In this document: positions 34,055 through 55,458 of the stretch, in pieces | How positions within the stretch are numbered: the first letter of the stretch is position 1 | How the letters are laid out: each line of letters opens with the position of its first letter | Origin: Phreatobacter aquaticus | GTDB taxonomy: Bacteria; Pseudomonadota; Alphaproteobacteria; Rhizobiales; Phreatobacteraceae | NCBI RefSeq assembly: GCF_005160265.1 | Contig: NZ_CP039865.1 | Location: 1,636,828 to 1,700,827 of the forward strand | Direction: 5' to 3' | Length of the DNA: 64,000 nt | Made by a program: the position numbers and the translations under genes | Notes under the pieces: model-generated | What the model was told of the DNA's origin: nothing | Database searches by the model: none | The model's input: only the letters and a program-made list of their open reading frames with translations

Positions 34055-35113
34055 ATGGTGGCATGGACAAGACGCGGATTCATCGCGGCATCCACGGCTG
34101 GTGCCGGCCTCCTGGCCGCGCCGCAGGTGCGGGCTCAGACCGATTTCATGGAGCCGGTGCGCATCCGCATGGGCTTCGCGCCCTATATCTCGGCGGGGCC
34201 CTATTACATCGCCCAGGCCAAGGGCTATTTCAAAAAGCTGAACATCGAGATCGAGCCGTCGAGCCACGTCGATGGCTCCCTGTCCATGCCGGCTCTGGCC
34301 GCGGGCGAACTCGACATCACGGGTGCAACCCTGAGTGCCGGACTGTTCAACCTGATGTCGAAGGGAACGGGCCTGCGCCTGTTCTTCGAGCGGGGCCGCG
34401 AGGCGCCGGGCTGGGGCTCCAACTCCATCATGGTATCGAATGCCATGTGGGAGAAGGGCTTCCGCTCGGTGGATGGCTACAAGCTCGCCAAGGGCGCTAA
34501 GATCGGCATTTCCTCGCGCGGCAGCGTCGCCCACTACCTGCACGGCGTCGGCCTCGAGCGGGCCGGACTGAAGTTCGACGATGCCGACTGGAACTGGGGC
34601 ATGTCACCCCAGGTCAGCCTGCCGCTGATGCAGCAGAACCGCATCGACATTCTCAACATGCCGTTGCCCGGCGCCTATGCCGCGCAGAGCCGCGGGATCG
34701 GCAAGATCGCCACCTGGAGCGACGAGATCGCCCCCAACTTCGTGCTGGCCTGCTCCGTCGCCAGCGAGAAGTTCCTGCGCGAGAAGCATTCGGCCGCCGT
34801 GCGCTTCTCCATGGCGATCATGCAGGGCAATGTCGAGTTCATGGATGCCGCGCGCAACGGCACACCGGAGATCCTCAAGATCATGGCCGAAGGCACCGGC
34901 CTGACGCCCGAGGTGATCGATTCCACCCGCCAGCGCTGGACCTTCATGTCGCCCGACGGCCTGCCGAACATGCCCTCGATCCTCGGGCAGCAGCGCTACT
35001 GGCACGAGAAGACCGACCTTTTGGCCCGCATGGTGCCGGAGAACCAGATCTTCGACGATCGCGCCGTGCGCGAGGCACGCAAGCGGATGGACGACAAGAA
35101 CCCCTTCATCTGA
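34055..35113 (+). CDS. ABC transporter substrate-binding protein, NMT1/SsuA type
   Basis: A 352-residue periplasmic protein of the family that binds small organic molecules such as sulfonates or pyrimidine precursors. The signal peptide has the Tat motif TRRGFIAAS and ends near VRAQ. The family start VRIRMGFAPYISAGPYYIAQAKGYFKK is clear, followed by ALAAGELDITGATL. GAGGAGA precedes the ATG. It leads an operon with the ATPase, permease and three amidohydrolase genes, so its ligand is probably the substrate or precursor of those enzymes. Confidence 0.88.
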   Translation: MVAWTRRGFIAASTAGAGLLAAPQVRAQTDFMEPVRIRMGFAPYISAGPYYIAQAKGYFKKLNIEIEPSSHVDGSLSMPALAAGELDITGATLSAGLFNLMSKGTGLRLFFERGREAPGWGSNSIMVSNAMWEKGFRSVDGYKLAKGAKIGISSRGSVAHYLHGVGLERAGLKFDDADWNWGMSPQVSLPLMQQNRIDILNMPLPGAYAAQSRGIGKIATWSDEIAPNFVLACSVASEKFLREKHSAAVRFSMAIMQGNVEFMDAARNGTPEILKIMAEGTGLTPEVIDSTRQRWTFMSPDGLPNMPSILGQQRYWHEKTDLLARMVPENQIFDDRAVREARKRMDDKNPFI

Positions 35114-35179: not shown

Positions 35180-35980
35180 ATGTCCTTTGAAGCCATATCG
35201 ATCGAGGGCCTGTCGCACCGCTTCCTGTCGCGGTCGCGGCCCCCGACCACGGCCCTCACCGACGTGACCTGCCGGTTTCCCGCCGGCAAGGTCACCGCGA
35301 TCGTCGGGCCGTCCGGCTGTGGGAAATCGACCCTGCTGCTCATCATGCGCGGGCTGGTCAAGGCGAGCCAGGGCGAGGTGAAGTTCCTCTATGGCGACGG
35401 CAAGGGCGGCCTTGCGCCCGGTGCTCCGCCGCGCATGGCGACCGTCTGGCAGTCGTTCAATCTGCTGCCCTGGCGGACTGTCGCCGACAATGTCGCCTTC
35501 GGTCTGGAGCTTGCCGGCATGGGCGCCGAGGAGCGCCGGGCCAAGGCGATGGACGCCATCAAGGCGGTCGAGCTTGCGGGCTTCGAGAACCATTATCCGG
35601 GCCAGCTCTCCGGCGGCATGCGCCAGCGCGTTGGCCTTGCCCGCGGCCTGGTGATGGCGCCCGACATCCTGTTCCTCGACGAGCCTTTCGGGGCGCTTGA
35701 TGCCCAGACGCGTCTCTATCTGCAGGAACAGCTGTCGACGCTGGTCGAGGCGAGCGCCAAGACCGTCATCCTGATCACCCATTCCATCGAGGAAGCGATC
35801 TTCCTCGGCGACCATGTGGTGGTGATGACCGCGCGTCCCGGCCGCGTCGCGGCAACCCTTGACGTGGACCTGGCCCGCCCGCGCGGCATCGACGTGCAGA
35901 ACGACAAGCGCTTCGGCGAGCTGTTCTCCGAGATCTACGGCCTGCTGCGCGACGAAGTGCGCAAGTCCATGCTGAACTGA
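35180..35980 (+). CDS. ABC transporter ATP-binding protein, nitrate/sulfonate/taurine type
   Basis: A 266-residue cytoplasmic ATPase. Walker [10 protein letters not shown] is at 43-51; the signature is LSGGMRQR and Walker B is ILFLDEPFGALD. The sequence FNLLPWRTVADNVAFGLEL is typical of the SsuB/TauB group. It powers uptake through the permease encoded 8 bases downstream. An AAGGAGG is placed rather far (about 14 bases) from the ATG. Confidence 0.92.
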   Translation: MSFEAISIEGLSHRFLSRSRPPTTALTDVTCRFPAGKVTAIVGPSGCGKSTLLLIMRGLVKASQGEVKFLYGDGKGGLAPGAPPRMATVWQSFNLLPWRTVADNVAFGLELAGMGAEERRAKAMDAIKAVELAGFENHYPGQLSGGMRQRVGLARGLVMAPDILFLDEPFGALDAQTRLYLQEQLSTLVEASAKTVILITHSIEEAIFLGDHVVVMTARPGRVAATLDVDLARPRGIDVQNDKRFGELFSEIYGLLRDEVRKSMLN

Positions 35981-35988
35981 GGCGCACC

Positions 35989-36804
35989 ATGACCGACGTC
36001 AAGGCAACCACGGATCTCAGCAGCCTGGCCCAGCCGGTCGCCGACGAACGGCTGCGCGACGACACCTGGTGGTATGGCCCTGTCGCGATGGTGCTGTTCC
36101 TGCTGTTCTGGGAGGTCTCCGTCCAGTTCGGCAATATCCCGGAAATCTTCCTGCCGCGCCCGTCCCTCGTGGTGGTGACGCTCTACGACCTCTTTGCCCG
36201 CAAGGGCCTCGCCTATGATCTCGTCCTGACGCTCTACCGCATCTTCGGCGGCTTCCTGCTGGCCGCCGTCGCCGGGATTGCGCTGGGACTGCTGATGGGC
36301 ATGTCGAAGCGCATCTACGCTGTCGCCGATATCTTCGTTGCCGCGATCTATCCGGTGCCGAAGATCGCGCTGGTGCCGCTGCTGGTCATCTGGCTCGGCA
36401 CCGGCAATGCCTTCCAGATCGCGCTCTCCGCGCTCGGCTGCATCTTCCCCATCCTGGTCAATACGATCATCGGCGTTCGCCAATGCGACGAGGGGCTGAT
36501 CCTGGCCGCCCGCGATCTCGGCGCATCGCCGGTGCAGATCCAGCGCAAGGTGGTGCTGCCGGCCGCCATTCCCGCCATCTTCGGCGGCTTGAGACTTGCG
36601 CTCGGCATCTCGATCATCCTGGTCGTTGCCGCCGAGATGCAGACCGCCCGCTACGGCCTTGGCGCCAAGTTGCAGGCGGCCGGCCAGGTTCTGGAGACAG
36701 GGCAAGTCTTCGCCATCCTGCTGCTCCTGTCGATCCTCGGCATCATGCTGAGCAAGGGTCAGGACCGGCTCGGCAACCTGGTCAATCGCTGGCGCGCCAA
36801 CTGA
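35989..36804 (+). CDS. ABC transporter permease, nitrate/sulfonate/taurine type
   Basis: A 271-residue inner-membrane protein with about six membrane segments after a polar N-terminus. The ATPase-coupling loop AARDLGASPVQIQRKVVLPAAIPAIFGG is the EAA-like motif of this permease family. It follows the ATPase gene by 8 bases and precedes the first amidohydrolase by 45 bases. Confidence 0.92.
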   Translation: MTDVKATTDLSSLAQPVADERLRDDTWWYGPVAMVLFLLFWEVSVQFGNIPEIFLPRPSLVVVTLYDLFARKGLAYDLVLTLYRIFGGFLLAAVAGIALGLLMGMSKRIYAVADIFVAAIYPVPKIALVPLLVIWLGTGNAFQIALSALGCIFPILVNTIIGVRQCDEGLILAARDLGASPVQIQRKVVLPAAIPAIFGGLRLALGISIILVVAAEMQTARYGLGAKLQAAGQVLETGQVFAILLLLSILGIMLSKGQDRLGNLVNRWRAN

Positions 36805-36849: not shown

Positions 36850-38223
36850 ATGACACGGACGCTGATCGAATGCGGCTGGCTGGTCTCGATGGACGAGACA
36901 GTCGGCGATCACCGGGATGCCCGCATCCTGATCGAGGGCAACCGCATCGTCGCGGCGGGCAAGGGCATCGAGGCCGACGCCGACACGGTGATCGATGCCC
37001 GCGACAAGATCGTCATGCCCGGCCTGATCGATGCCCATATCCACACCTGGCAGGCGGGGCTGCGCGCCATCGGCTCGGAATGGCTCGGGCCGGACTACCA
37101 CAAGAACATCCACGCCAATCTCGCGACCCATTACGGCCCCGGGGACAATTATGTCGGCAACCTGATCGGCGCGCTTGGCCAGATCGATGGCGGCGTCACC
37201 ACCATTCTCGACTGGTGCCACAACCTGACCTCGCTCGAACATGCCGAGCGCTCGGTCGATGGTCTCGAGGAATCGGGTATTCGCGCCGTCTTCGCCCATG
37301 GCACGGCCAAACCGCCGACCAAGCCGGGCGAACTGCCCTACACCCACGTGCCCCATCCGCGCGACCGGATCGAGGCGCTGCGCAAGGGGCGCTTTGCCTC
37401 CGACGACCGGCTGGTGACGCTCGCCATGGCGATCCTCGGGCCCCACTGGGGCACCTATGAGGTCGCCGAGCAAGATCTGCGCATGGCGCGCGAGTTCGGC
37501 CTGCTCTCCACCTCCCACGCCACCCGCAAGATTGCCGACCAGGTGGCGCCCGGCGGCTATGGCAAGCTGGTGAAGGCGGGCCTGATCGGCCCCGACCACA
37601 ATCTCGTCCATGGCAATTACATCGAGGACGAGGAGCTCAAACCTCTGATCGAGGCCGGCGCCTCGGTCACCGCCACCGTGCTGGTCGAACTGCACGGCCA
37701 CGTGGCCGAGCCGGTGACGCTGCGCGTGCGCAAGTTCGGCGGCATGCCGTCGATCGGCATCGACGTCGAGCCGATCGTCACCGGCGAGATGTTCCGCGAG
37801 ATGCAAGCAGCCCTCCTCCATGCCCGCTGGGCCTCGCTCCGCGACAACCAGGCGGCCGGCAATCCGCCGTTCAAGACCATCCCGATCAGATCGCGTGAGG
37901 CGCTGACCTGGGCGACCATCGGCAATGCCCGCGCCATCGGGCTGGAGGATCAGATCGGTTCGATCACGCCGGGCAAGAAGGCGGATATCGTCATGCTCCG
38001 GGCGAACGACCTCAACCTGTTCCCCGTCCACGATCCGCTTCTGTCGATCACCGACCAGGCCAATGCCGGCAATGTCGACACCGTCATCATCGATGGCGTG
38101 ATCAAGAAGCAGGGCGGCAAGCGCCTGTTCCGCGACGATGTGCTGGAACGCCGCAAGCTGGAGCTTGTCGCCTCGATCGAGCGCATCATGCGCGCCGGTT
38201 CGTTCTCCGTGACGGCGGCCTGA
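36850..38223 (+). CDS. Amidohydrolase family protein 1 of 3 (cytosine deaminase/ATZ-TRZ fold)
   Basis: A 457-residue metal-dependent hydrolase with an N- and C-terminal composite beta domain and a TIM barrel. Metal ligands are visible: HIH (63, 65), His223 in STSHATR, His254 in LVHGN and Asp305 in GIDVE. In the ATZ/TRZ family the segment after the third His normally reads HxxE with a catalytic Glu; here position 226 is Arg. A Glu (280) conserved in all three paralogs replaces the usual Asn of the CPxSN motif. The substrate is unknown; chemistry could be deamination or amide hydrolysis of the imported compound. Confidence 0.85.
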   Translation: MTRTLIECGWLVSMDETVGDHRDARILIEGNRIVAAGKGIEADADTVIDARDKIVMPGLIDAHIHTWQAGLRAIGSEWLGPDYHKNIHANLATHYGPGDNYVGNLIGALGQIDGGVTTILDWCHNLTSLEHAERSVDGLEESGIRAVFAHGTAKPPTKPGELPYTHVPHPRDRIEALRKGRFASDDRLVTLAMAILGPHWGTYEVAEQDLRMAREFGLLSTSHATRKIADQVAPGGYGKLVKAGLIGPDHNLVHGNYIEDEELKPLIEAGASVTATVLVELHGHVAEPVTLRVRKFGGMPSIGIDVEPIVTGEMFREMQAALLHARWASLRDNQAAGNPPFKTIPIRSREALTWATIGNARAIGLEDQIGSITPGKKADIVMLRANDLNLFPVHDPLLSITDQANAGNVDTVIIDGVIKKQGGKRLFRDDVLERRKLELVASIERIMRAGSFSVTAA

Positions 38224-38227
38224 GACC

Positions 38228-39601
38228 ATGACGAAGACGCTCATCACCTGCGGCTGGATCGTCTCGATGGATCCGGCCATCGGCGACCTCAAGGGCGGGC
38301 AGATCCTCGTTGAGGACGACCGGATCGCTGCCGTCGGCCGGGATCTCGTAGTCGACGCCGATGAGGTCATCGACGCGCCGTCGATGATCGCCATGCCGGG
38401 CCTCGTCAACGCCCATATGCACACCTGGCAGACGGGGCTCCGGGCCATCGGCTGCGAATGGGCCCATGGCGAATATTTCAAATATCTCCATGGCGGCATG
38501 GCGACCCAGTATGGCCCCGAGGACAATTATCTCGGCAACCTGATCGGCGCGCTGAACCAGATCGATGGCGGCTGCACCACGCTCAACGACTATTGCCACA
38601 ACATCACCTCGACCGAGCAGGCCGAGCGCTCGATCGACGCCCTGAAGGATTCCGGCATCCGGGCGGTCTTCACCATGGGCGCCGGCAAGCTGCCGCCGGC
38701 GCGCGAGGCTATCGAACCCTTCGAGAAGCGGATCAATCCGCGCACCCGCGTCGATCACATCCGCCGCAGGCTGGCCTCAAACGACGCGCTGATCACCATG
38801 GCGCTGGGCGTCGCCGGACCCCACTGGGCCGAGATGGAGCCGACGCGGGTCAATCTCAGGCTCGCCCGCGAGATGGGGCTCCGCTCCTCCTCGCACGCCA
38901 CCAAACGACCTGAACTCGCGGTCGATCCGCGCGGCTATTATCCGCTGCTGGACGAAGGCCTGGTCGGCGAGGATCACAGCGTCGTCCATGGCAATTACCT
39001 CTCCGACGACGAGCTGAAGCGGCTGGTCGATGCCGGCGTCACCATCTGTGCCACCGTCCAGACCGAACTGCGCGGCTATGCCGGCGATCCCCTCGTCGGG
39101 CGCGTGCGAGCCCTCGGCGGGTTGCCGGCACTCGGCATCGATGTCGAGCCCCGCGTCTCCGGCGAGATGTTCCGCGAGATGCAGATCGCGCTGCTCTATG
39201 CACTTTCCGTCTGCCAGCGCGAGAATGTCCGCGACGGCAAGCCGCCCTTCTCGGCTGTGCCGATCCGCTCGCGGGAAGCGCTCGCCTGGGCGACCATGGG
39301 CGGGGCGAAGGCGCTGGGGCTCGACCACATGATCGGCACGCTGACGCCCGGCAAGAAGGCCGATATCGTCCTGCTCGACGGCGACGACCTCAATCTCTTC
39401 CCGGTCCACGACCCCATCCTGTCGATTGTCGAACAGGCCAATCAGGGCAATGTCCACACGGTGATGATCGACGGCGTGATCGCCAAGCGTGATCGCAAGC
39501 TGGTGTTCCCCGAGACGGTCCGCCGGCAGCGGATGGCCGAGCTCGCGACCTCGGTCGATCGCATCATGGCGGAAGCCGCCTACGTGCCCTTCGGCCGGTG
39601 A
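38228..39601 (+). CDS. Amidohydrolase family protein 2 of 3
   Basis: A 457-residue paralog of the gene 4 bases upstream, alike over its whole length (for example GLVNAHMHTWQTGLRAIG and DLNLFPVHDPILSIVEQANQGN). The ligands HMH, His in SSSHATK, His in VVHGN and Asp in GIDVE are kept. The usual catalytic Glu position is Lys. The conserved alternative Glu is in ATVQTELRGY. It probably acts on a related compound or forms a complex with its paralogs. Confidence 0.85.
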   Translation: MTKTLITCGWIVSMDPAIGDLKGGQILVEDDRIAAVGRDLVVDADEVIDAPSMIAMPGLVNAHMHTWQTGLRAIGCEWAHGEYFKYLHGGMATQYGPEDNYLGNLIGALNQIDGGCTTLNDYCHNITSTEQAERSIDALKDSGIRAVFTMGAGKLPPAREAIEPFEKRINPRTRVDHIRRRLASNDALITMALGVAGPHWAEMEPTRVNLRLAREMGLRSSSHATKRPELAVDPRGYYPLLDEGLVGEDHSVVHGNYLSDDELKRLVDAGVTICATVQTELRGYAGDPLVGRVRALGGLPALGIDVEPRVSGEMFREMQIALLYALSVCQRENVRDGKPPFSAVPIRSREALAWATMGGAKALGLDHMIGTLTPGKKADIVLLDGDDLNLFPVHDPILSIVEQANQGNVHTVMIDGVIAKRDRKLVFPETVRRQRMAELATSVDRIMAEAAYVPFGR

Positions 39602-39609
39602 GGAGCGGA

Positions 39610-40977
39610 ATGGCGAGCCCGAAGCGCACGCTCATCCGCTGCGGCCATCTCGTCACAATGGACGGGGCCATTGGCACGCGCCGCAACTGGGAATTGCTCT
39701 ATGTCGGTGACCGGATCGAGGCGATTGCCGAGAGGGTCGACCAGCCTTGGGATGACGTGATCGACGCCTCCGGCATGATCGTCATGCCGGGCCTCGTCAA
39801 CATGCACCTCCACACGTTTCAGGCGGGCTTTCGCGCCATCGGCTCGGAATGGCTGGCGCCGGACTATTTCCGCAATTTCTACGGCAATGCCGCCACCCGC
39901 TTCGGGCCGGAGGACAATTACCTCGGCACGCTGTTCGGCGCGCTCAACCAGCTGAACAACGGCGTGACCACGCTTGCCGACTATTGCCACAATGTCCGCA
40001 CGCTCGAGCAGGCCGAGCGGTCGGTCGATGCTCTGGTCGATGCCGGCATTCGCGCGGTCTTCATCCATGGCGACGGATTGCGTGAGCCCGCGCTTCCCGG
40101 CGCCCTGCCGGCCCGCCGGCTGCATCCGCGCGAGCGGGTGGAGGCGCTGCAACGGAGCCGCTTTGCGACACCGGGCCGCGTGACCCTCGCGTTGGGCATT
40201 GCCGGCCCGCACTGGGCCGACTGGGAGGCGAGCCTCGCCAATGTCAGGCTTGCGCGCGACCTCGGCCTCATCGCGTCGTCCCACGTCACGCGCCCGCATG
40301 CGGCGGCCATCGTGCCCGATGGCTATGACCGCCTCGCCGCGATGGGTCTGCTCGGACCGGACCACAATCTCGTCCACTGCAACCATCTGACCGCCGATGA
40401 ACTCGGCCGCCTGCTCGATGCCGGCTGCACGGTGACGGCCACCACGACCAACGAATTCCACGATTACCCCAGCGACTCGGCGCTCAGGAAGGTGATGGAT
40501 CGCGGCCACAGGCCCTCGCTCGGTGTCGACGTCGAGGCGATGGTCTCCGGCGATCTCTGGCGGGAGATGCAGACGGCCCTGCTGTTCGCCCGCAACGAGG
40601 GTCTGCGCCACGGCCGCCCGGATGCGATGATCCCTGTCAAGACCGCGCTCGGCTGGGTGACCGCGGCTGGCGCGCAGGCGCTGATGATGGAGGGGGCCAT
40701 CGGCGTCCTGAAGCCCGGCGCCAAGGCCGACATCGTCCTGCTGCGGGCAGGTGACCTCAACCTGTTCCCGGTCCACGACCCTGTCTTCTCGATCGTCGAG
40801 CAGGCCCATGCCGGCAATGTCGACACCGTCATCGTCGATGGCGTAACGCGCAAGCGCGACGGCCGCCTGTTGGTGGAGGCCGGCTGGCTGTCGCGCCTTG
40901 GAGAGCGCCTGCGGCAATCGGTGGCGAGGCTCGCCCATGAGTCAGGGCTGGCGCTGCCGGGGCCGGCTCAGCCCTAA
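39610..40977 (+). CDS. Amidohydrolase family protein 3 of 3
   Basis: A 455-residue paralog, more diverged than the first two. The ligands HLH, His in ASSHVTR, His in LVHCN and Asp in GVDVE are kept; the catalytic Glu position is Arg and the alternative Glu is in ATTTNEFHDY. GAGGAG lies six bases before ATG 39610; an in-frame GTG at 39598 overlapping the previous stop is less likely. It ends the operon and converges on the transglutaminase-like gene. Confidence 0.84.
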   Translation: MASPKRTLIRCGHLVTMDGAIGTRRNWELLYVGDRIEAIAERVDQPWDDVIDASGMIVMPGLVNMHLHTFQAGFRAIGSEWLAPDYFRNFYGNAATRFGPEDNYLGTLFGALNQLNNGVTTLADYCHNVRTLEQAERSVDALVDAGIRAVFIHGDGLREPALPGALPARRLHPRERVEALQRSRFATPGRVTLALGIAGPHWADWEASLANVRLARDLGLIASSHVTRPHAAAIVPDGYDRLAAMGLLGPDHNLVHCNHLTADELGRLLDAGCTVTATTTNEFHDYPSDSALRKVMDRGHRPSLGVDVEAMVSGDLWREMQTALLFARNEGLRHGRPDAMIPVKTALGWVTAAGAQALMMEGAIGVLKPGAKADIVLLRAGDLNLFPVHDPVFSIVEQAHAGNVDTVIVDGVTRKRDGRLLVEAGWLSRLGERLRQSVARLAHESGLALPGPAQP

Positions 40978-43043: not shown

Positions 43044-45680
43044 TTATCGTGCGGCGGCGTCAGGCACCCAATCCGTCATGTGCAGCACGTGGCCGCCGAG
43101 CCTGGCGAAGGCGCGCTGCCGGCACGAGAAGACGATGATCTGCTGCTCGCGCGCCTGCCGGTGCAGCGCATCGAACATGCGCTCGATGCGGTCATCGTCC
43201 GAATAGACCAGCGCATCGTCGAGAATGACAGGCGCCGCGCGACCGTCGCGGGCGAGAAGCCGCGCGAAGGCCAGCCGCGTCAGGATCGACAGCTGCTCGC
43301 GCATGCCGCCGCTCAGCCGATCGATGTCCTCGTCCTGGCCATTCCTGCGGATCGACTGGGGCAGCAGCGTCTTCTCGTCGAAGACGATGGACACGTCGTC
43401 GAACAGCATGCCGAGCAGCGGCCGCAATTCGGTCAGCACGGGCTTGAGATAGAGATCGCGGGCCGCCGAGCGTGCCTGTTGCAGCACCGCCTTGAGGCGA
43501 TCCAGAACCGCCACCTCCGTCTCGAAGGCCGCGACCCGCGCCTCGGCCGCCTCGCGCTGGTCCTTGGTTTCCCGCCAGCTCTCCTCCACCGCATCGTCGG
43601 AACGGGAGCGGATCTGCCCGTTCAATTCGGCCAGCTGCTCGCGGAGCGCTGCGGCTTCCCTGGCCGCGCCATCCTCGATCGACCGGACGCGCTGCAGCGA
43701 CGCCTCGATCGCCTCAACCGACGGCGCATGCTCACGGAGCCCTGTGAGCTGCATGTCCAACTGGTCGACCTGAATCTGCTGGCTCGCGCGCTCGGCCGCA
43801 AGCGCCTGCTCCCGCGCCATCCGGGCCTCCGCCGGTCCCAGCAAGGCCTCGAGACCGGACAATTCGCCGTTCAGCCGGACATAGGCGGCCTCCGCCTGTC
43901 CCTCGGCATCCTGAGCCCGGCTCAATGAGGGACCAGCCTCCCGCTCGGCATTGCGCGCCGCATCGACCTGGAGGTCGGCCTTGGCGACCGCCTCGCGGGC
44001 CGCATCAGGATCGCCCTTCAGCTCGATATCGGCCGGGGCGATCGCCTCCAGCCGCGCGACGTCGGCGCGCAGCGCCGGCACACCCTCCGGCGCCAGAAGC
44101 CGCAGCTGGAGGCGCAGGCTCGCGACCGATCCCGCCTTGTCGCGGGCCTCGGCCTGGCGCTGTTGAGCCGCCGGCAGATCGTCCACCCCCAAAGTGGCGA
44201 GCAGCGATTGCCGGCCCGCAACGGCCTTGGTGAGCGCTGCATCCGCACCGGCCGGCCGGTTGGAGCGAAGTGTCAGGGTGCCGATGCCCGGCAGGGTCAG
44301 CACGAGGTTATCCGGCACGCTGCGATCGACGCCATCAGCCAGCGGCACGCCATCGGCCAGCACGGCGGATGCGCCCGGTTGATAGTCGAGGCGGACGGAG
44401 GGAAGCCCGGCCTCCGCCGACGCCCGCAGCCGTGCGATCTCCATGTCCAGCTTCTGCAGCCGGTCGATCGCATCCTCGGGCATGGCGAGGCGGGCAAGCT
44501 CGGCTTCGCCCGCTTCCAGGCTCTGGCGGACCGTCTCGGCCTCGGTGAGACGCTCGCGGCGGACCAGCAGATCCTCCATGGCCTGCCGCGCCTTCATCGC
44601 CGCGTCGAGGCGGGCCAGCAGATCGCGCGCCGCCCGCTGTTCGGCCTCGGCCGCCTTGGCCAGGGCCGATGCCGTGTCGATGGCCGCCTGGCATTCGGCG
44701 CGCCGGGCGCGCAAGGCACCGCGCTGCTCGGCGGCCTGGCCAAGCTCATGCGACAGGGTAGCGGCCCGCGTCAGCGCATCGCGAAAGGCGGTCAGCTCCC
44801 GATCCGCCTTGGCGAGGCGGTCGCGGGCGAGCGCTGTTTCCGCCTCGCGCGCCTTCAGCGCGTCGCTATGGGCGCGGGCCTTCTGGAGGGCGGCCTCGGC
44901 TGTTACAACAGCCGCGCGCCGCGAGGCCTTCTCCTCGGGGGCGTCCAGCTCGGTGAGGCGCCTTGTCGCCATCAGGCGGCGGTCGAGCGCGTCGCGGAGA
45001 TCGGCGACGTCCTTCTCAAGCCGCTTCTCCTGCGCCAGCAGACGGGCCAGGTCCTCAGCGGCCGCGGCATAGGGGCCACCGGCCTTCGGCTTCAATGTCG
45101 GCGTGGCGAACCGGCCGAGCTCCTCGGATGCCGCCTCCATGATCGCCGCCATGCGCCGGCCGCCGGTGACCGCCTCGACCTCGCCCTGGACGGAGGTCAG
45201 CAGGCTCTCGCGGACGCGCCGATCGCCCTCCTCGTCGCTGCGGCTGCGCTCCTCCAGTCCGGTAATGCCTTGCCGCACCCACAGCATGCCGGCCGGACCC
45301 GCCGTCCCGCCATGGACCAGATCGGCGATGAACCGTTCGGCCTCGTCCTGTTGGGCCACCAGCCGCCCGCTGGCGATCTCGGTGACGGTTGCGCGCTTGC
45401 CGCCGATGAACTGCTTGGTCAGGCGGAACTGTCCCCCCGCCGTCACGATGTCGGCCTCCACCAGCGGATTGCCGCCGCTATAGGGCTGCAGCCTGCGGAC
45501 CTCCTTGGGCACGCCCGAATGCGGCTGGAAGAACAGCGCATGCAGCGCTTCGAAACTGGTCGACTTGCCGAATTCATTGGCGGCGCACAGCACGTTGACG
45601 CCGTCGCCGATGCCCTCGATGGCAACGCCGCGTCCGGCGAACCGCTTGACGTTGTGAAGCCGCAGCGCCGAGATCTTCAT
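43044..45680 (-). CDS. SbcC/YhaN-like AAA ATPase with coiled coils
   Basis: An 878-residue SMC/Rad50-like protein. Walker A is NEFGKSTSF (about 35-43), followed by long coiled coils (about 205-425 and 500-800), then signature LSGGMREQ and Walker B PVILDDALVYSD near the C-terminus. The middle has no CxxC zinc hook; instead residues 426-475 form a small beta-rich insert (SVRLDYQPGASAVLADGVPL and after). ATG 45680 overlaps the stop of the nuclease gene by 4 bases, so the two form one complex, presumably a DNA end-processing nuclease. YhaN is a closer match than true SbcC. Confidence 0.8.
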   Translation of the reverse strand: MKISALRLHNVKRFAGRGVAIEGIGDGVNVLCAANEFGKSTSFEALHALFFQPHSGVPKEVRRLQPYSGGNPLVEADIVTAGGQFRLTKQFIGGKRATVTEIASGRLVAQQDEAERFIADLVHGGTAGPAGMLWVRQGITGLEERSRSDEEGDRRVRESLLTSVQGEVEAVTGGRRMAAIMEAASEELGRFATPTLKPKAGGPYAAAAEDLARLLAQEKRLEKDVADLRDALDRRLMATRRLTELDAPEEKASRRAAVVTAEAALQKARAHSDALKAREAETALARDRLAKADRELTAFRDALTRAATLSHELGQAAEQRGALRARRAECQAAIDTASALAKAAEAEQRAARDLLARLDAAMKARQAMEDLLVRRERLTEAETVRQSLEAGEAELARLAMPEDAIDRLQKLDMEIARLRASAEAGLPSVRLDYQPGASAVLADGVPLADGVDRSVPDNLVLTLPGIGTLTLRSNRPAGADAALTKAVAGRQSLLATLGVDDLPAAQQRQAEARDKAGSVASLRLQLRLLAPEGVPALRADVARLEAIAPADIELKGDPDAAREAVAKADLQVDAARNAEREAGPSLSRAQDAEGQAEAAYVRLNGELSGLEALLGPAEARMAREQALAAERASQQIQVDQLDMQLTGLREHAPSVEAIEASLQRVRSIEDGAAREAAALREQLAELNGQIRSRSDDAVEESWRETKDQREAAEARVAAFETEVAVLDRLKAVLQQARSAARDLYLKPVLTELRPLLGMLFDDVSIVFDEKTLLPQSIRRNGQDEDIDRLSGGMREQLSILTRLAFARLLARDGRAAPVILDDALVYSDDDRIERMFDALHRQAREQQIIVFSCRQRAFARLGGHVLHMTDWVPDAAAR

Positions 45681-46798
45681 GACGCGGCCTTCTGGGCATA
45701 GGAGAACAGGCGGACCAGCGCCGCGCGCGCAATCTCGCGCTCCGCTGCCGTCTTGGCCCCGTCCAGGCTCTCCACTTGCAGGATCTCGGCGGCCTGGCGC
45801 AGCGCGCCCGCACGATCGATCAGATCGAGGTCGCCGGCCTCGCATTCGGTCTCGAGGCCATCGGTCAGAAGCTCGAGCAGGGCGAATTCCGGCGCGGCCT
45901 GCTCGACGGCCGCCGCCAGCGCGGTGCGCGTGGCGATGCTGGCGCGGCCCGAGGCGGCAATCCGCAACAGGCTCTGCCGGCGCTGCGGGCCGGCGGGCAG
46001 AAGGGTTGGCAGCATCGCCGCGCCGTCGTCCTGCGCCAGCAATGGCAGCGGCAGCGTCCGCCAGTCAAAAAGGCCGGTTTCAAGCGGCGTCACTTCCGGC
46101 TGTGCGCCTTTCGCCTCGATCACGACCATCAGCGCGCGTCCGGGCGCGTCATGCTTGAACCGGTCCGGCTCGGGCGTGCCGCTGTAGCGGGTGCGGGCAT
46201 CGACGGCGACGGCACCGTGCCAGTCGCCAAGCGCCAGATAGTCGAGCCCGGCGCGGACAGCCCGGTCCGGCGCGATGACGTCGGAGATCGCGGCCTCCTC
46301 CGAGAAGGTCTGGATCGGTCCATGGGCGAGGCCGATGCGCATGGCCTCGCCGGTTGCGGCACCCTCCATCCATTCGGTCAGGTCGCGGCCTGGCCGGCGT
46401 GTGGTGCAGGGCGCGGGGAGGATCGTCACCCCGGGCTGGAGCTCGATCGGCTGGGCCTCGGTCGCCAGCAGGACATTGCCGGGGCGATCGGCGGCGAGCG
46501 CGCGCCACAATTCGCTGGATTGCAGGGAATCGTGATTGCCCGGCAGAATGATCCAGGTGAGCGGGTGATGGTGGTGCATCGCCGCCAGCGCCTGCCGGCG
46601 GATGTCCGGCGCCGGCGTTTCGGTATCGAACGTGTCGCCGGCCAGCAGCACCGCCTGGGCGCCGTTGTCGCGGGCCACGGCGGCAAGCCGGCCGATCACG
46701 CTGTGACGGGCTTCTCTCAGCCGCCCGCGCAGATCCTCGGCCATGTTGCCGAAGCGCTTGCCGAGATGCAGATCGCTGCTGTGGATGAAGCGCACCAT
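45677..46798 (-). CDS. SbcD/YhaO-like DNA repair exonuclease (metallophosphoesterase)
   Basis: A 373-residue calcineurin-type phosphoesterase. The metal motifs are in order: FIHSSDLHLG (residues 4-13), LLAGDTFD, LPGNHDS, GLAHGP and LGDWHG. These give the two-metal site of Mre11/SbcD nucleases. ATG 46798 has AGGAT upstream and starts directly at MVRFIHSSD; the frame open to 46867 is not needed. It is translationally coupled to the ATPase gene. Confidence 0.88.
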   Translation of the reverse strand: MVRFIHSSDLHLGKRFGNMAEDLRGRLREARHSVIGRLAAVARDNGAQAVLLAGDTFDTETPAPDIRRQALAAMHHHHPLTWIILPGNHDSLQSSELWRALAADRPGNVLLATEAQPIELQPGVTILPAPCTTRRPGRDLTEWMEGAATGEAMRIGLAHGPIQTFSEEAAISDVIAPDRAVRAGLDYLALGDWHGAVAVDARTRYSGTPEPDRFKHDAPGRALMVVIEAKGAQPEVTPLETGLFDWRTLPLPLLAQDDGAAMLPTLLPAGPQRRQSLLRIAASGRASIATRTALAAAVEQAAPEFALLELLTDGLETECEAGDLDLIDRAGALRQAAEILQVESLDGAKTAAEREIARAALVRLFSYAQKAAS

Positions 46799-46892: not shown

Positions 46893-47654
46893 TCAGGTGC
46901 GCAGGCCAGACCCGAAGGCGCGCGGCCTGAGGCCCGCGTGGAGCCAGGTGATCAGCGTGTAGATGTCATAGACCGGCAGGCCGAGGGCCGCCTGGAGCGC
47001 TGCCGCATAGGGCGGCATGTTGGTGCATTCCAGCACGATGGCGCCGAGATCGGGATGGGCCGCGACAAGCGCCCGGCCGGCCTCGATCACGTCTTGCTCG
47101 GCGAGCGCGACATCCAGGTCCTCGCTCTCTGCCTTCACCAGCACCCTGAACAATTCGCGGCCGTTCTCGACTCCAACCACCGGGGCGTCCAGCGGCACAC
47201 CGGCGGTCAGCAGATGCGCAGGCGTCAGGGACGAACGCGACACCGTGACGATGCCGACACGCTTGCCCGGCGGCAATGTTGCCTGCACCCACGGCACCTG
47301 CATCAGCGATGAGGTTACGACCGGCACACCGACCGCCGCCGCGATCTCGGCCTGGAAGATCGACAGGAAGCCGCAGCTGGTGGTGATGGCCTCGGCGCCC
47401 TGCCGCACCAGGTCGCGGGCCGCGTCGATGAAAGCCGGCAGAAGTCCGGCGGCGCCTTCCAGCACCACCTTCTCAGCGGTCGCGCCGGTGACGACCTTGT
47501 AGAGCACCGGAAACGGCCAGGTCCCCGCATGGCCGATATCGCCGGCAATGCGGGGAAAGCGCGTCTCCAGCATCAGGATGCCGAGGGGCGCGCCGTAGAG
47601 CGCCCAGCCGCCTTTGGCGATGCGGGGGGAGGAGGGTGCGATGGGCGTCGTCAT
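46893..47654 (-). CDS. Aspartate/glutamate racemase family protein
   Basis: A 253-residue cytosolic protein of the Asp/Glu/hydantoin racemase or maleate isomerase group. Two catalytic Cys are visible in ITTSCGFLSIFQ and VLECTNMPPYAAAL, each at the expected position in the two pseudo-symmetric halves. The fold can racemise amino acids, isomerise maleate or decarboxylate malonates; the sequence does not settle which. It is followed by RidA in the upstream direction, 30 bases away, in one operon. Confidence 0.85.
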   Translation of the reverse strand: MTTPIAPSSPRIAKGGWALYGAPLGILMLETRFPRIAGDIGHAGTWPFPVLYKVVTGATAEKVVLEGAAGLLPAFIDAARDLVRQGAEAITTSCGFLSIFQAEIAAAVGVPVVTSSLMQVPWVQATLPPGKRVGIVTVSRSSLTPAHLLTAGVPLDAPVVGVENGRELFRVLVKAESEDLDVALAEQDVIEAGRALVAAHPDLGAIVLECTNMPPYAAALQAALGLPVYDIYTLITWLHAGLRPRAFGSGLRT

Positions 47655-47684
47655 GGCAGTCTCCTCAAAGCCCCGCGCCGCCGG

Positions 47685-48035
47685 TCAGCGCGCCGCGATG
47701 GCGATGACCTCGATCAGGTAATCCGGATGGGCCAGTTCGACGCGGCCGCAGGCCCGGGTCGGCGCCTGGCCCGGAACGACCCAGGCATCATAGACGGCAT
47801 TCATGGCTGCGAAGTCGTCCATGGATTTCAGCCAGATCTGCACGCTCAGGAGACGCGACCGCTCGGTGCCGGCCTGCGCCAGCATGTCGTCGACCTTGGC
47901 GAGGGCCTCGCGGGTCTGTTGGGTGATGTCGCCACTCTTGTCGTCGGCAACCTGGCCGGCGAGGAACACGAGGTCGCCGAAGACGGACGCGCGGCTGCGG
48001 CGGGCGTTCTGGTCGATGCGGATGATATTCGTCAC
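47685..48035 (-). CDS. RidA family enamine/imine deaminase-like protein
   Basis: A 116-residue chorismate-mutase-like fold protein. The pattern FLAGQVADDKSGDITQQTREAL, then IWLKSMDDFAAMNAVYDAWV and YLIEVIAIA matches RidA. The Arg in PTRAC aligns with the catalytic Arg of active RidA members. It hydrolyses reactive enamines or imines made by PLP enzymes, or acts in a specific catabolic route here. It is divergent from the OCD-like gene. Confidence 0.9.
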   Translation of the reverse strand: MTNIIRIDQNARRSRASVFGDLVFLAGQVADDKSGDITQQTREALAKVDDMLAQAGTERSRLLSVQIWLKSMDDFAAMNAVYDAWVVPGQAPTRACGRVELAHPDYLIEVIAIAAR

Positions 48036-48212
48036 GGTGTCCTGCCCTTGTTCGGTGGTGCCATCGGCCGGGTGCCACGACGCGGCGGCGCTTGTCCAGC
48101 GCCGTATGCCATTGCGCTAGCGAGGCTGGCGCTGCGAGCGAACTTGCGCAAGGCTGGCGGCCGATCTCCCCCGGCTCTCCGGGCGAGGGCAGGGCAATTG
48201 GAGACCTCCCCT

Positions 48213-49190
48213 ATGACGTCGCATGCCGGGCATCACCTGACCTATCTCTCGCAGGCCGACGTCGTCGCCTGCGGCGTGACGGCCAGCGCGCTGGAGGAGG
48301 CCATCCGCCAGGTCTTCCTGCGCCGGGCCGAGGGCGGTGTCTGGTCCCATCCGAAGGTCGTCATCGGCGCCGGTGGCCGCAACTGCTTCCGGGGCAAGGG
48401 CGCTGCCATGGATCAGCCGGCCTATGGCGCCTTCAAATGGTTTGGCTATTTCCCGGGCAATGGCAGCGCCGGCCTGCCGGATTTCATGCCGATGATCATC
48501 CTCAACGAGGCGACCACCGGTCGACCCCTGGCAATCATGGATGGCATCTGGATCTCCGCCATCCGCACCGCGCTGATCTCGCTGATCGCCGCCCGAATCA
48601 TGGCGCGTCCCGATGCCCGCACCATCGGCTTCCTCGCCTGCGGCGCGCAGGCGCACAGCCATCTCGACGCGTTCTCGGCTGCCTTGCCGCTGACGACGGT
48701 CGTCGCCTACAGCCGCCGCCTGGAGACGGCCGAGGCCTTCGCCGCCCATGCCCGCGCCAAGGGGCTGGACGCGCGCGCGGTCAGCGATCCCAGGGCCGCG
48801 ATCGCCGGCAGCGACATCATCGTCAGCTCTATCCCCCATGGCTCGGCCACCGCCGGTCAGCTCGACGCCAACTGGGTCGAGCCGGGCACGTTCGTCGCTT
48901 CCGTCGATCTCGGCTTCGGCTGGCGCCGCGACAGCCTGTCGGCCTTCGACCGCACGGTGACCGACGACCACGAGCAGAGCACGGTCGGCCCCAAGGGCAC
49001 GCTGAACTATGACGGGCCCTTTGCCGCCGAACTCTGCGATCTCGTCGCGGGCCGTCAGCCGGGGCGCGCCCATGCCGCCGAGCGCAACGCGCTGATCTTC
49101 TCCGGCACGGGGATTGCTGATCTCGCGTCGGCGATCCTTGTCTACGAGACCGCGCTGGCCAAAGGTATCGGCACGACGCTGCCGCTCTGA
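48213..49190 (+). CDS. Ornithine cyclodeaminase/mu-crystallin family protein
   Basis: A 325-residue NAD(P)-dependent protein. The N-terminal substrate domain has YLSQADVVACGVT and HPKVVIG; the Rossmann segment is TIGFLACGAQAHSHLDAFSA. The family includes ornithine cyclodeaminase, alanine dehydrogenase and imine reductases; the dinucleotide motif here reads GFLACGAQA rather than GxGxQA, which still fits. GGAGA lies before ATG 48213. It heads an operon with the Bug protein and the split transketolase. The specific activity is not known. Confidence 0.85.
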   Translation: MTSHAGHHLTYLSQADVVACGVTASALEEAIRQVFLRRAEGGVWSHPKVVIGAGGRNCFRGKGAAMDQPAYGAFKWFGYFPGNGSAGLPDFMPMIILNEATTGRPLAIMDGIWISAIRTALISLIAARIMARPDARTIGFLACGAQAHSHLDAFSAALPLTTVVAYSRRLETAEAFAAHARAKGLDARAVSDPRAAIAGSDIIVSSIPHGSATAGQLDANWVEPGTFVASVDLGFGWRRDSLSAFDRTVTDDHEQSTVGPKGTLNYDGPFAAELCDLVAGRQPGRAHAAERNALIFSGTGIADLASAILVYETALAKGIGTTLPL

Positions 49191-49243
49191 ACACGCCCGA
49201 ACGGGCATCGGCTCATGCTTGCTGGAATGAAGGGGACTGACAG

Positions 49244-50269
49244 ATGACGCACTCTTCCGATCGCGATCGATCCATGGCGCCGCGCGGCCTGGCCACATTC
49301 AGCCGGCGGGGCTTCTCCGGGCTTCTCGGCGGCTCGGCCGTTCTGCTGGCGGCCCCCAATGTGGCCCGCGCGCAAGCCTATCCGGCCCGCCCCGTGCGCG
49401 CCATCGTCACTTTCGCGCCGGGCGGCACCGTGGACGTCTATGCGCGGCTGGCCTGCCAGCACCTGTCGCAGAAGCTCGGACAGCAATTCGTCGTCGAGAA
49501 TGTCGCCGGCGCCACCGGCAATCGCGGCACAGTCCAGGCGGCTCGTTCCACGGCCGATGGCTATACGCTGTTGTTCGCTCTCAGCACCCATGCGGTGAAT
49601 GCCTCGGTCTTCAACAATCTGCCCTACGATCCGGTCGCCGATTTCGTGCCGATCAACCTCTCGGTCTCCTCGACCCATGTGATCTCGGTCCATCCCTCGC
49701 TTGCCGCCAAGAGCGCCAAGGAATTCGTCGCCGACCTCAAGGCACGGCCTAACCAGAACTACGCCCATGGCGGGATCGGCACCCAGGGCCATCTGCTGGC
49801 GGAACGGCTGAAGGTGACCCAGAATCTCGACATGGTGGCCGTGACCTTCCCCGGGGCCGGACCGGCGGTTCAGTCGGTCGTCGCCAACCAGATCCCCAGC
49901 GCCTGGACCACCATGGCCTCCGCCGGACCGATGATCGCCGGCGGCCGCCTGAGAGCGCTGGCAGTGACCGGCAAGACCCGCTCCGCGCTTCTTCCTGACG
50001 TGCCGACCATGGTCGAGCAGGGCTTCCCCGAGATCGAGGGCGATACCTGGGTCGGCATCATGGCCCCCAAGGGCACGCCCGGCGAGGTGGTCTCCACCGT
50101 CAATCGCGAGATTTCGGAGTTCCTCCAGCAACCCGCGGCGCGCCAGCGGCTGGCCGATGTCGGCTTCGACGTGGTCAACAAGGGCCCCGCCGAATTCGCG
50201 CAGGTGCTGAAGGAGGAAATGGTCTTCTGGAAGAAGGTGGTCGAGGAGACCAAGGTCAGGATCGAATGA
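49244..50269 (+). CDS. Bug family (TctC-like) tripartite tricarboxylate transporter binding protein
   Basis: A 341-residue periplasmic binding protein. The long N-region ends with the Tat motif SRRGFSGLLGG and the signal is cut near ARAQ. The family core reads YPARPVRAIVTFAPGGTVDVYARL and VENVAGATGNRGT. These proteins bind carboxylates and aromatic acids. AAGGGG lies before the ATG. TctA and TctB membrane subunits are not adjacent, common for this abundant family. Confidence 0.9.
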   Translation: MTHSSDRDRSMAPRGLATFSRRGFSGLLGGSAVLLAAPNVARAQAYPARPVRAIVTFAPGGTVDVYARLACQHLSQKLGQQFVVENVAGATGNRGTVQAARSTADGYTLLFALSTHAVNASVFNNLPYDPVADFVPINLSVSSTHVISVHPSLAAKSAKEFVADLKARPNQNYAHGGIGTQGHLLAERLKVTQNLDMVAVTFPGAGPAVQSVVANQIPSAWTTMASAGPMIAGGRLRALAVTGKTRSALLPDVPTMVEQGFPEIEGDTWVGIMAPKGTPGEVVSTVNREISEFLQQPAARQRLADVGFDVVNKGPAEFAQVLKEEMVFWKKVVEETKVRIE

Positions 50270-50451
50270 CCCCGCGCGCGGGCCGCGCAAGCGCCTGACC
50301 AGACAGCCTCCCGGCCATTTGCGCATCCCTGTCCGCCAATCGCGGGCAGGGCCCAACGAGACGTTGCCGCGCCCCGCCGCGGCATCCTATGAAAGGTGCA
50401 GGGGAGGACCAGCTCAAGGCTCGGCCTTCAATCACCAGAGGTCTCGTTCAA

Positions 50452-51291
50452 ATGACCCAGTTAGGCCATAACGTCTCGCTCGCCGAGCGAGCCTGGCGCA
50501 TCCGCCGCAATGCCTTGCGCATGGGCGAGGTGCAGGGCCAGGGCTATATCGCGCAGGCGCTCGGCATCGCCGACGTGCTGGCGGTGTCCTATTTCCACGC
50601 GCTGAACTACCGGCCCGACGATCCCGAATGGGAGGAGCGCGACCGCTTCCTGCTCTCCATCGGCCATTATGCGATTGCGCTCTATTCGGCGCTGATCGAG
50701 GCCGGGATCATCCCCGACGATGAGCTGGAGACCTATGGCGGTGACGACAGCCGCCTGCCCATGTCCGGCATGGCCGCTTACACGCCCGGCATGGAGATCA
50801 CCGGCGGCTCGCTCGGCCATGGTCTGGGCATCGCGGTGGGCATGGCGCTGGGGCTGAAGCGCAAGCGCTCCAAGGCCTTCGTCTACAATCTGTTTTCTGA
50901 CGGCGAGCTCGACGAGGGCTCGACCTGGGAGGCCGCCATGTCGGCCGGCTCCTTCGGTCTCGACAACCTCATCGGCATCGTCGACGTCAACAACATGCAG
51001 GCAGACGGCCCCTCCACCCAGCAGCTGAACTTCGAGCCGCTGGTGCCGAAATTCGAGGCCTTCGGCTGGCATGTCCAGCGCCTCGACGGCAACGATATTC
51101 CAGGTCTCGTGAAGGCCTTCGACGCCGCGCGGAACGCGCCTGTATCAAAGCCGCGCATCATCATCTGCGACACCAAGATGGCCAAGGGCGTGCCCTTCCT
51201 CGAGGAGCGCGAGCGCAACCATTTCCTGCGCGTCGAGCCGGACGAATGGGCGAAGGCCCTCGACATTCTGGAAGCCGGGAGGCCCGCATGA
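50452..51291 (+). CDS. Transketolase, N-terminal (TPP-binding) subunit
   Basis: A 279-residue protein equal to the N-terminal third of transketolase. GSLGHGLGIAVGMALG and SDGELDEGSTWEAAMSAG...VDVNNMQADG form the thiamine diphosphate and Mg site. It needs the second subunit for activity. ATG 50452 (AGAGGT upstream) is preferred to an ATG at 50389. Its stop overlaps the next start. Split transketolases are often dedicated to a sugar-phosphate or keto-acid catabolic route rather than to the pentose pathway. Confidence 0.92.
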   Translation: MTQLGHNVSLAERAWRIRRNALRMGEVQGQGYIAQALGIADVLAVSYFHALNYRPDDPEWEERDRFLLSIGHYAIALYSALIEAGIIPDDELETYGGDDSRLPMSGMAAYTPGMEITGGSLGHGLGIAVGMALGLKRKRSKAFVYNLFSDGELDEGSTWEAAMSAGSFGLDNLIGIVDVNNMQADGPSTQQLNFEPLVPKFEAFGWHVQRLDGNDIPGLVKAFDAARNAPVSKPRIIICDTKMAKGVPFLEERERNHFLRVEPDEWAKALDILEAGRPA

Positions 51292-52328
51292 CCCGGCGCT
51301 CGAAATATGACCGGCCGGCCCATCTCGCCGAGCGTGCGGAAGGCGGCGTCCGGCTGAAGACCTCGGCAATGATCGCTTCCATTGCCGGAGAAGGACAAAG
51401 GACCGCGCCGGCGCCCTTCGGCCATGCGCTGGTCGAGGCCGCGCGCACCCGCCCCGACATCATCGGGCTGTCGGCGGACCTGTCGAAATATACCGACCTG
51501 CACATCTTCGCGAAGGCCTATCCCGACCGCTTCTACCAGATGGGCATGGCCGAGCAGATCCTGATGAGTGCTGCCGCCGGTCTCGCCCGCGAGGGCTTCA
51601 CGCCCTTTGCCACCACCTATGCGGTGTTTGCCTCGCGCCGCGCCTATGACTTCATCTTCATGGCGATCGCCGAGGAGGGGCTGAACGTCAAGATCGTCTG
51701 CGCGCTGCCCGGCCTCACCACCGGTTATGGGCCGAGCCATCAGGCGACGGAGGATATCGCGATCTTCCGCGGCATGCCGGGCCTGACCATCGTCGACCCC
51801 TGTGACGCCCATGAGATCGCCCAGGCGACCACCGCCATCGCCGACCACAAGGGCCCCGTCTATATGCGGCTCCTGCGCGGCAATGTGCCGATGGTGCTGG
51901 ACGAGTACGGCTACACGTTCGAACTCGGCAAGGCCAAGATGATCCGCGGCGGCAACGACGTGCTGATCATCTCGTCCGGGCTCATGACCATGCGCGCGCT
52001 GGAGACGGCCAAGGCGCTGGAGTCCGACCGCATCGATGTCGCGGTGCTGCATGTGCCGACCATCAAGCCACTGGACGAGGCGACGATCCTGAAGGAAGCG
52101 GCAAAGACAGGCCGAAAGGTCGTCGTGGCGGAAAACCATTCGGTGGTCGGCGGCCTCGGCGAGGCGGTGGCCGGCGTGCTGATGCGGGCGGGCGTCATGC
52201 CCTCAGGCTTCGCGCAGATCGCCCTGCCGGATGCCTTCCTCGATGCCGGCGCCCTGCCGACGCTGCACGATCGCTACGGCATTTCGACCGAGGCGATGTG
52301 CACGCGGCTGAAGGCGATGGTGGGGTAA
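51288..52328 (+). CDS. Transketolase, C-terminal (pyrimidine-binding) subunit
   Basis: A 346-residue protein equal to the middle and C-terminal domains of transketolase. FYQMGMAEQILMSAAAGLAREGF has the Glu that activates thiamine diphosphate; FATTYAVFASRRAYDFI follows and the C-terminal domain has VVVAENHSVVGGLGEAVA. The ATG overlaps the stop of the first subunit by four bases (ATGA). The N-terminal 40 residues are extra and polar. Confidence 0.92.
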   Translation: MTRRSKYDRPAHLAERAEGGVRLKTSAMIASIAGEGQRTAPAPFGHALVEAARTRPDIIGLSADLSKYTDLHIFAKAYPDRFYQMGMAEQILMSAAAGLAREGFTPFATTYAVFASRRAYDFIFMAIAEEGLNVKIVCALPGLTTGYGPSHQATEDIAIFRGMPGLTIVDPCDAHEIAQATTAIADHKGPVYMRLLRGNVPMVLDEYGYTFELGKAKMIRGGNDVLIISSGLMTMRALETAKALESDRIDVAVLHVPTIKPLDEATILKEAAKTGRKVVVAENHSVVGGLGEAVAGVLMRAGVMPSGFAQIALPDAFLDAGALPTLHDRYGISTEAMCTRLKAMVG

Positions 52329-52389
52329 GGAGCCCGCGCGACCCTCTCCTCGGACCCATGCGAGGCCCGCTCCCGAAGCCGGGCGCGTC

Positions 52390-52533
52390 CTTCACCTCGC
52401 CCCAACGGGGAGAGGTCGATCCGAGCCATAGGCGAGGATCGGGAGAGGGGGATGGTGCTTACCGGAGACAGCTCGCCCCCTCACCCGCCGCCCTTTCAGG
52501 GCGCCGACCTCTCCCCGTCGGGAAGAGGTGAAG
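52390..52533. repeat. Extragenic inverted repeat element
   Basis: A 29-base arm at 52390-52418 (CTTCACCTCGCCCC, ACGGGGAGAGGTCG) is repeated in reverse at 52505-52533 with two mismatches. The inside is GC-rich with more minor hairpins. It lies in the 414-base gap after the transketolase genes and before the convergent SDR gene. A shorter relative occurs at 61690. This looks like a dispersed palindromic element of the REP/RIME kind. Confidence 0.7.
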
Positions 52534-52606
52534 GGCGGGCCCGGCCATTCGCACGGTCTCAGCGGGAAAACCCGAGAGCCATGGGCGTGCTGCTTGAGCT
52601 GGCATC

Positions 52607-52639
52607 TCTTCACCCTCCCCCTCCAGGGGTGGGTGAAGA
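52607..52639. repeat. Hairpin-forming repeat, possible terminator
   Basis: TCTTCACCC and GGGTGAAGA enclose CCCC...GGGG, giving a stem of about 13 pairs. It is related in sequence to the neighbouring repeat arms (TCTTCACC). It may terminate either of the two convergent operons. Confidence 0.5.
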
Positions 52640-52742
52640 AGGGTCGCCCTCCGGACGATTTCGAACATCACGATAAGCCGGCAAAAGAAAAGCCGCCGGC
52701 TTGCGCCAGCGGCTCGATTGTCAGGCGCTCCGTCTCAGTCCG

Positions 52743-53540: not shown

Positions 53541-53547
53541 GCAGTCC

Positions 53548-55340: not shown

Positions 55341-55415
55341 GGACTGCGATTTCCCCTTCTGCGCCACCCGTGTGCAGGGCGCGTTCGTCTCGCCCGGTGT
55401 CTGAGCCAGGTGGTA

Positions 55416-55442
55416 TGGCCGGCAGCGGACAGCCGCCGGCCA
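55416..55442 (-). other. Intercistronic hairpin between TRAP binding-protein and permease genes
   Basis: TGGCCGGC and GCCGGCCA form a perfect 8-bp stem around an 11-base loop, 17 bases after the DctP stop. No T-run follows. The position, like that of the ugpB hairpin, suggests a role in making more binding protein than permease. Confidence 0.6.
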
Positions 55443-55458
55443 CACGCATTCGAATGGA

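Follow-up and report, generated by a model that had tools for sequence, protein, structure and literature searches.

A stretch of 64,000 nucleotides from Phreatobacter aquaticus (contig NZ_CP039865.1, positions 1,636,828 to 1,700,827, hereafter the window) carries three tandem amidohydrolase genes, whose products we call AH1, AH2, and AH3. All three proteins keep the metal site of the amidohydrolase superfamily, lack the glutamate of the HxxE motif, and have a glutamate in place of the asparagine of the CPxSN motif. We found that this residue swap belongs to a single clade and that the three proteins are members of the NCBIfam subfamily NF006056 (PRK08204), a branch that is widespread in bacteria and haloarchaea. 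The best explanation is that the active site was remodelled once, with the loss of the HxxE glutamate and of the β7 His/CPxSN and the gain of an acidic residue at position 280 (AH1 numbering), together with Trp67, Tyr83, and His124. As regards function, we propose, with a probability of roughly 0.4, that the trio forms with its importer an aromatic catabolic module, in which the remodelled metal-dependent active sites would perform serial hydrolysis toward ring cleavage. The three genes and their diagnostic sites are listed below, in window positions.

36850..38223, + strand, amidohydrolase AH1 (PRK08204 family), 457 amino acids, NF006056 497.8 bits
37513..37527, + strand, SHATR of AH1, β5 metal His223 without the HxxE glutamate
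37687..37689, + strand, Glu280 codon of AH1, at the CPxSN asparagine position
38228..39601, + strand, amidohydrolase AH2 (PRK08204 family), 457 amino acids, NF006056 463.4 bits
38891..38905, + strand, SHATK of AH2
39065..39067, + strand, Glu280 codon of AH2
39610..40977, + strand, amidohydrolase AH3 (PRK08204 family), 455 amino acids from the ATG, NF006056 430.5 bits
40279..40293, + strand, SHVTR of AH3
40453..40455, + strand, Glu282 codon of AH3, equivalent of Glu280

An earlier note, made from the DNA of this locus, had described three full-length paralogs retaining the HxH, His, His, and Asp ligands. The open reading frames are intact and lie on one strand with gaps of 4 and 8 bp (for AH3, an alternative upstream GTG start at 39598 is also open), and AH2 and AH3 are 55% and 50% identical to AH1. 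The five metal-site residues were located at H63/H65/H223/H254/D305 in AH1 and AH2 and at H66/H68/H225/H256/D307 in AH3. The same note had reported that the HxxE glutamate is missing after the third His, that is the β5 His, the third metal ligand in order: three residues past it, the trio has R, K, and R, never E. It had also placed a glutamate at the CPxSN asparagine, and in profile alignments to solved relatives Glu280, Glu280, and Glu282 indeed align with that asparagine without gaps, the β7 segment reading TATVLVE, CATVQTE, and TATTTNE where the relatives have VxHCPxSN. These residue observations are confirmed.

All three proteins score above the curated NF006056 cut-off of 391 bits for the whole protein, and their scores against PF01979 (amidohydrolase superfamily) are 84-89 bits, for a gathering threshold of 25. 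The sequences compared were family members from 80 loci of named genomes, from genus and order relatives, and from plasmid records, plus ordinary ATZ/TRZ relatives. The ordinary relatives show the pattern HxxE ... V[AS]H[NC]PxSN, whereas PRK08204-type members, including those of haloarchaea, actinobacteria, and enterobacterial plasmids, carry an acid where the CPxSN asparagine would be, and of those checked only L087 retains the HxxE glutamate. Out of 117 rows, 63 have no HxxE and an acid at 280, 35 have HxxE and the asparagine, and 19 are in other states; HxxE and an acid at 280 occur together in only two of these 19.

A maximum-likelihood tree was computed after the removal of the trait columns. 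One clade of 63 rows (Shimodaira-Hasegawa-like approximate likelihood ratio test support 100, stem length 0.94 changes per site) contains 62 of the 63 rows that combine the two derived states; the remaining row of the clade is L087, and the derived-state row outside it, L060_21, sits on a long branch. Since the swap holds family-wide and falls in a single clade on a tree built without the trait columns, it is not due to chance, and a trio-specific oddity was rejected. Further conserved positions shifted jointly with these, as Trp67 (directly after HxHT), Tyr83, and His124 are also characteristic of the clade: Tyr83 is found in 63/63 clade rows, while 33/35 ordinary relatives have Trp there, and position 124 is Tyr in 26/35 ordinary relatives. 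Thus, the swap is not peculiar to this three-gene set but marks an already catalogued, unnamed subfamily, whose only description is "hypothetical protein".

Residue 280 also varies together with the metal ligands. The first set has Glu there in 57/57 members with all metal ligands intact and Asp in 6/6 members with a changed ligand (HxC, or β5 His to Glu/Asp). Among newly fetched members, leaving aside duplicates of the genes of the window genome itself, Glu280 is present in 12/12 with intact ligands; in those with an altered ligand, four β5-Glu members have Asp280, and L180, with a β5 Asn, keeps Glu. The Asp280 cases stem from only two or three lineages, and L180 softens an otherwise perfect association, so that the evidence tying residue 280 to the metal site is strong but is no proof.

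The members with both β5 metal His to Glu and Glu280 to Asp (L157:8031-9344, L184:4947-6344, L186:4944-6341, L169, and L170) come from Enterobacterales plasmids and two genomes of the same phylum, and are a second case of metal-site remodelling; in all three Enterobacterales plasmid copies a DMT-family transporter lies 3′ of the gene. Three other members (L063:7466-8785, L064:12166-13485, and L087:9992-11305) have HxC for HxH and Asp at 280, and those of L063 and L064 lie next to an NMT1-like binding protein of their own.

The AlphaFold2 model of AH1 (mean predicted local distance difference test 94.4, predicted template modeling score 0.94) has Glu280 in a short helix (277-283) straight after strand β7 (272-275); in the amidohydrolase fold, this side of the barrel bears the mouth of the active site. 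Its closest solved fold is AtzA, with a template modeling (TM) score of 0.85, and the best solved matches also include TrzN and the nucleoside/base deaminases (S-adenosylhomocysteine/methylthioadenosine, SAH/MTA, and 8-oxoguanine/isocytosine). The trio shares with AtzA/TrzN and the SAH/MTA, 8-oxoguanine, and guanine deaminases (subtype III) the fold and the HxH-His-His-Asp metal site, with the HxH, β5 His, β6 His, and β8 Asp all present; these relatives have the HxxE glutamate and the β7 SN of VxHCPxSN, while the trio has neither, with Glu at the asparagine position. In subtype III deaminases, an Asp-His-Glu machinery is conserved, in which the Glu protonates the ring nitrogen (PMC12828455).

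No PRK08204-type member was found in the PDB, where the best relatives are all of the HxxE/SN type, and a literature search for PRK08204 found no paper. Likewise, no characterised member was found in the literature on amidohydrolases with hydroxyquinol, maleylacetate, intradiol, flavonoid, or COG0402; an Aspergillus amidohydrolase that emerged from the literature is described as homologous to orsB-type decarboxylases and was taken as a different family. The trio is thus apparently an unstudied variant within a known superfamily, in a subfamily already catalogued without function.

The closest structural precedent is NatAM (TM 0.80 to the AH1 model), a zinc enzyme of nataxazole biosynthesis that makes the benzoxazole of this compound (PDB 6SJ0-6SJ4; PMC7204872). 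Its zinc ligands are His75, His77, His253, and Asp345, and the HxxE position (His253+3) is Ala256; Glu321 hydrogen-bonds the 3-OH and, with Asp345, the 2-NH2 of 3-hydroxyanthranilate, while mutation identified His290 (β6) as the essential proton donor, helped by Lys315 through a water (PMC7204872). The NatAM chain has 519 residues, of which 493 are traced, which suggests that chain index and paper numbering differ by 26; with this shift, the end points of the profile match put His254 on NatAM His290, Asp305 on Asp345, and Glu280 within one residue of Glu321. From the Glu to the metal Asp there are 24 residues in NatAM (Glu321/Asp345) and 25 in AH1. In profile and fragment searches NatAM did not rank among the best five alignments, and therefore the equivalence of Glu280 and Glu321 comes from residue counting. 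NatAM resembles the trio in fold, in the missing HxxE glutamate, and in a glutamate of the β7-β8 segment, perhaps offset by one residue, which in NatAM contacts aromatic OH/NH2 groups. It differs in its weak sequence similarity, longer β6-β7 stretch, biosynthetic and non-hydrolytic role, and partner ligase NatL2; an AMP/acyl ligase of this type is absent from the operon, which consists of importer genes and the paralogs. We consider NatAM a partial precedent for an active-site glutamate in the β7 segment combined with HxxE loss.

The trio lies beside its own importer, as the earlier note had said, and the three importer genes precede it in the window.

34055..35113, + strand, NitT/TauT-type (NMT1-like) ATP-binding cassette (ABC) substrate-binding protein, Pfam NMT1_2 1e-14
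35180..35980, + strand, ABC transporter ATPase, PF00005 2.8e-28 and synteny
35989..36804, + strand, ABC transporter permease, PF00528 1.5e-22 and synteny

The six genes form a block on the + strand with intergenic gaps of 4-66 bp. The frame of the binding protein is also open from an upstream GTG at 34007, and its sequence contains an apparent Tat-type signal (TRRGFIAA). The order binding protein-ATPase-permease-AH1-AH2-AH3 is kept in 5/12 genomes of the genus (the window genome, G003, G005, G008, and G011), a binding protein ortholog adjoining the trio in all five trio-holding genomes. In the tree without trait columns, AH1, AH2, and AH3 form three separate ortholog groups across the genus. 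The ratio of nonsynonymous to synonymous substitution rates between genus orthologs is 0.12-0.26, which indicates purifying selection on all three genes; together with the separate ortholog groups, it indicates that they are maintained as separate functions, and non-redundancy of AH1-AH3 is the best explanation. Sequencing errors or pseudogenes were rejected on the basis of purifying selection and of the orthologs in four other genomes. No such three-gene tandem was found in 239 further genomes sampled from the class, nor in a phylum sample. The NF006056 members checked share the remodelled residues with the trio; among the genomes covered, three of them in tandem beside an ABC importer occurred in this genus alone. 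A Pseudooceanicola algae plasmid (L150:9001-17398) shows another combination of importer and paralogs, a five-gene ABC importer cluster lying between two PRK08204 members that share about 44-45% identity with AH1.

The genomic context of the trio points to ring cleavage. In G003 and G008, a second cluster lies directly 3′ of AH3 on the same strand and encodes an intradiol dioxygenase, an SDR, a beta-keto-acid cleavage enzyme (BKACE), an MDR-type dehydrogenase, a cupin, a TTT-type binding protein, and a fourth PRK08204 paralog. Orthologs of this cluster are present in 5/5 trio genomes and in 0/7 other genus genomes (Fisher p 0.0013), and across the trio genomes the dioxygenase and the MDR are 78-79% and 82-85% identical to the copies of the window genome; the seven trio-less genomes have only a dioxygenase paralog at 45-47%. 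The dioxygenase of the window genome's cluster scores 211 bits with hydroxyquinol 1,2-dioxygenases and 120 with catechol 1,2-dioxygenase. A fourth PRK08204-type paralog (L069:9406-10863, about 793.4-794.9 kb), which scores 373 bits, slightly below the NF006056 cut-off, closes this hydroxyquinol-type cluster. The trio is thus linked genetically to a hydroxyquinol-type dioxygenase, by contiguity in two genomes and by co-occurrence.

Other PRK08204 members adjoin a maleylacetate reductase and an intradiol dioxygenase, and the one that was tested (G008, L065) is of the hydroxyquinol type; by annotation, the same reductase/dioxygenase pair lies beside members on Bosea, Skermanella, and Paraburkholderia plasmids. 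Still others, in Cupriavidus and Rhodococcus, have flavin monooxygenases as neighbours, accompanied by VOC, FAH, or alpha/beta hydrolases. We compared equal pools of 139 neighbour proteins of PRK08204 members and of ordinary relatives: intradiol dioxygenase domains were among the commonest around the former (4 proteins, 20 loci), while xanthine-dehydrogenase-type domains occurred around the latter (4 proteins, 23 loci), with no intradiol domain among the matches listed. The earlier note had suggested a substrate panel that included triazines, purines, and pyrimidines; the gene neighbourhoods lead elsewhere, to aromatic ring-cleavage genes.

In the aromatic catabolic module that we propose, the importer would take up a small aromatic compound bearing one or more hydroxyl groups or amino substituents, or a precursor of such a compound, and AH1-AH3 would hydrolyse it one step after another, much as atrazine is processed by AtzA, AtzB, and AtzC, three amidohydrolases in series. 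The likeness to this three-amidohydrolase design is by analogy only: AtzA keeps HxxE and acts on s-triazine substrates, while the trio consists of close paralogs in a single operon. The product would be a polyhydroxybenzene for the hydroxyquinol-type 1,2-dioxygenase and the beta-keto-acid cleavage enzyme of the partner cluster. A metal-bound water activated by Asp305/His254 would attack the substrate, and Glu280 would grip the ring OH/NH2 and relay the proton normally handled by the HxxE glutamate. We infer the substrate class, the order of the steps, and the proton role of Glu280. In a broader and doubtful version, the clade would be a distinct amidohydrolase class of Bacteria and haloarchaea in which the acid/base moved from β5 to β7, which opened the way to hydrolysing substituents on non-heterocyclic polyhydroxy- or amino-benzenes that feed hydroxyquinol and related ring-cleavage pathways, with the trio as a three-step example.

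Several points weigh against the catabolic module. The window genome has its ring-cleavage cluster at about 788-795 kb (L069), approximately 880 kb from the trio, and the co-occurrence may partly reflect shared descent, the five genomes perhaps being one clade. The hydroxyquinol pathway alone needs no amidohydrolase, and some family loci (in haloarchaea, enterobacterial plasmids, and several actinobacteria) have no obvious ring-cleavage genes. On the mechanistic side, the placement of Glu280 is taken from the secondary structure of the model, and its position within one residue of NatAM Glu321, obtained by residue counting, may be one off.

As NatAM warns, Glu280 may bind the substrate instead of acting as an acid. 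In this enzyme, a segment glutamate contacts ring OH and NH2, and the proton comes from the essential His290 with water-mediated help from Lys315. In the catabolic reading of the trio, Glu280 would hold ring hydroxyl or amino groups and possibly shuttle protons. It is a tenable reading, though short of even odds, that Glu280 is a pure substrate anchor and that the metal, Asp305, and His254 alone do the chemistry, as in classes that never had HxxE; a near-invariant acid over very diverse members, coupled to the metal ligands, exceeds what is expected of mere specificity tuning. The interpretation given in the earlier note is therefore partly supported: the swap is confirmed, extends across the family, and is coupled to the metal ligands, the importer is conserved beside the trio, and no characterised member was found in the PDB or the literature searched, while the part of Glu280 as the acid is put in doubt by the possible anchor role of the NatAM glutamate.

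Some enzymes of the amidohydrolase fold eliminate water, among them MxcM and NatAM, the latter with Ala at the HxxE position and Glu in the β7 segment, and the trio could thus catalyse a reverse or related reaction (cyclisation or condensation, as in benzoxazole formation) instead of hydrolysis. This is improbable, as the operon has no acyl/AMP ligase partner and the importer and ring-cleavage genes make up a catabolic setting. We regard it as very improbable that the three proteins act as ordinary deaminases of heterocycles or as chlorohydrolases, with the job of HxxE taken over by another glutamate (e.g., Glu307 of GIDVEP). The closest solved folds, AtzA, TrzN, and the SAH/MTA and 8-oxoguanine/isocytosine deaminases, would fit such an assignment, but position 307 is variable in the clade, no other acid was gained as consistently as that at 280, and the neighbourhoods are unlike those of ordinary relatives.

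Proteins of NF006056/PRK08204, annotated as "hypothetical" or "amidohydrolase family protein", are easily mis-assigned as triazine, purine, or SAH deaminases, and the swap gives a sequence signature that separates the clade from these enzymes. With the aromatic-degradation context, it indicates a testable substrate class, polyhydroxy-/amino-aromatics, and the clade is a natural experiment in the relocation of a catalytic residue within a superfamily.

Further downstream, at window positions 43044-46798, lies a pair formed by a large ATPase and a metallophosphoesterase, SbcC/SbcD-type nuclease-like by eye only. The region 46893-56454 holds genes for an Asp/Glu racemase family protein, a RidA-like protein, an ornithine-cyclodeaminase-like protein, and parts of TTT and TRAP transporters, identified mostly by eye; these catabolic-looking genes suggest a catabolic island.

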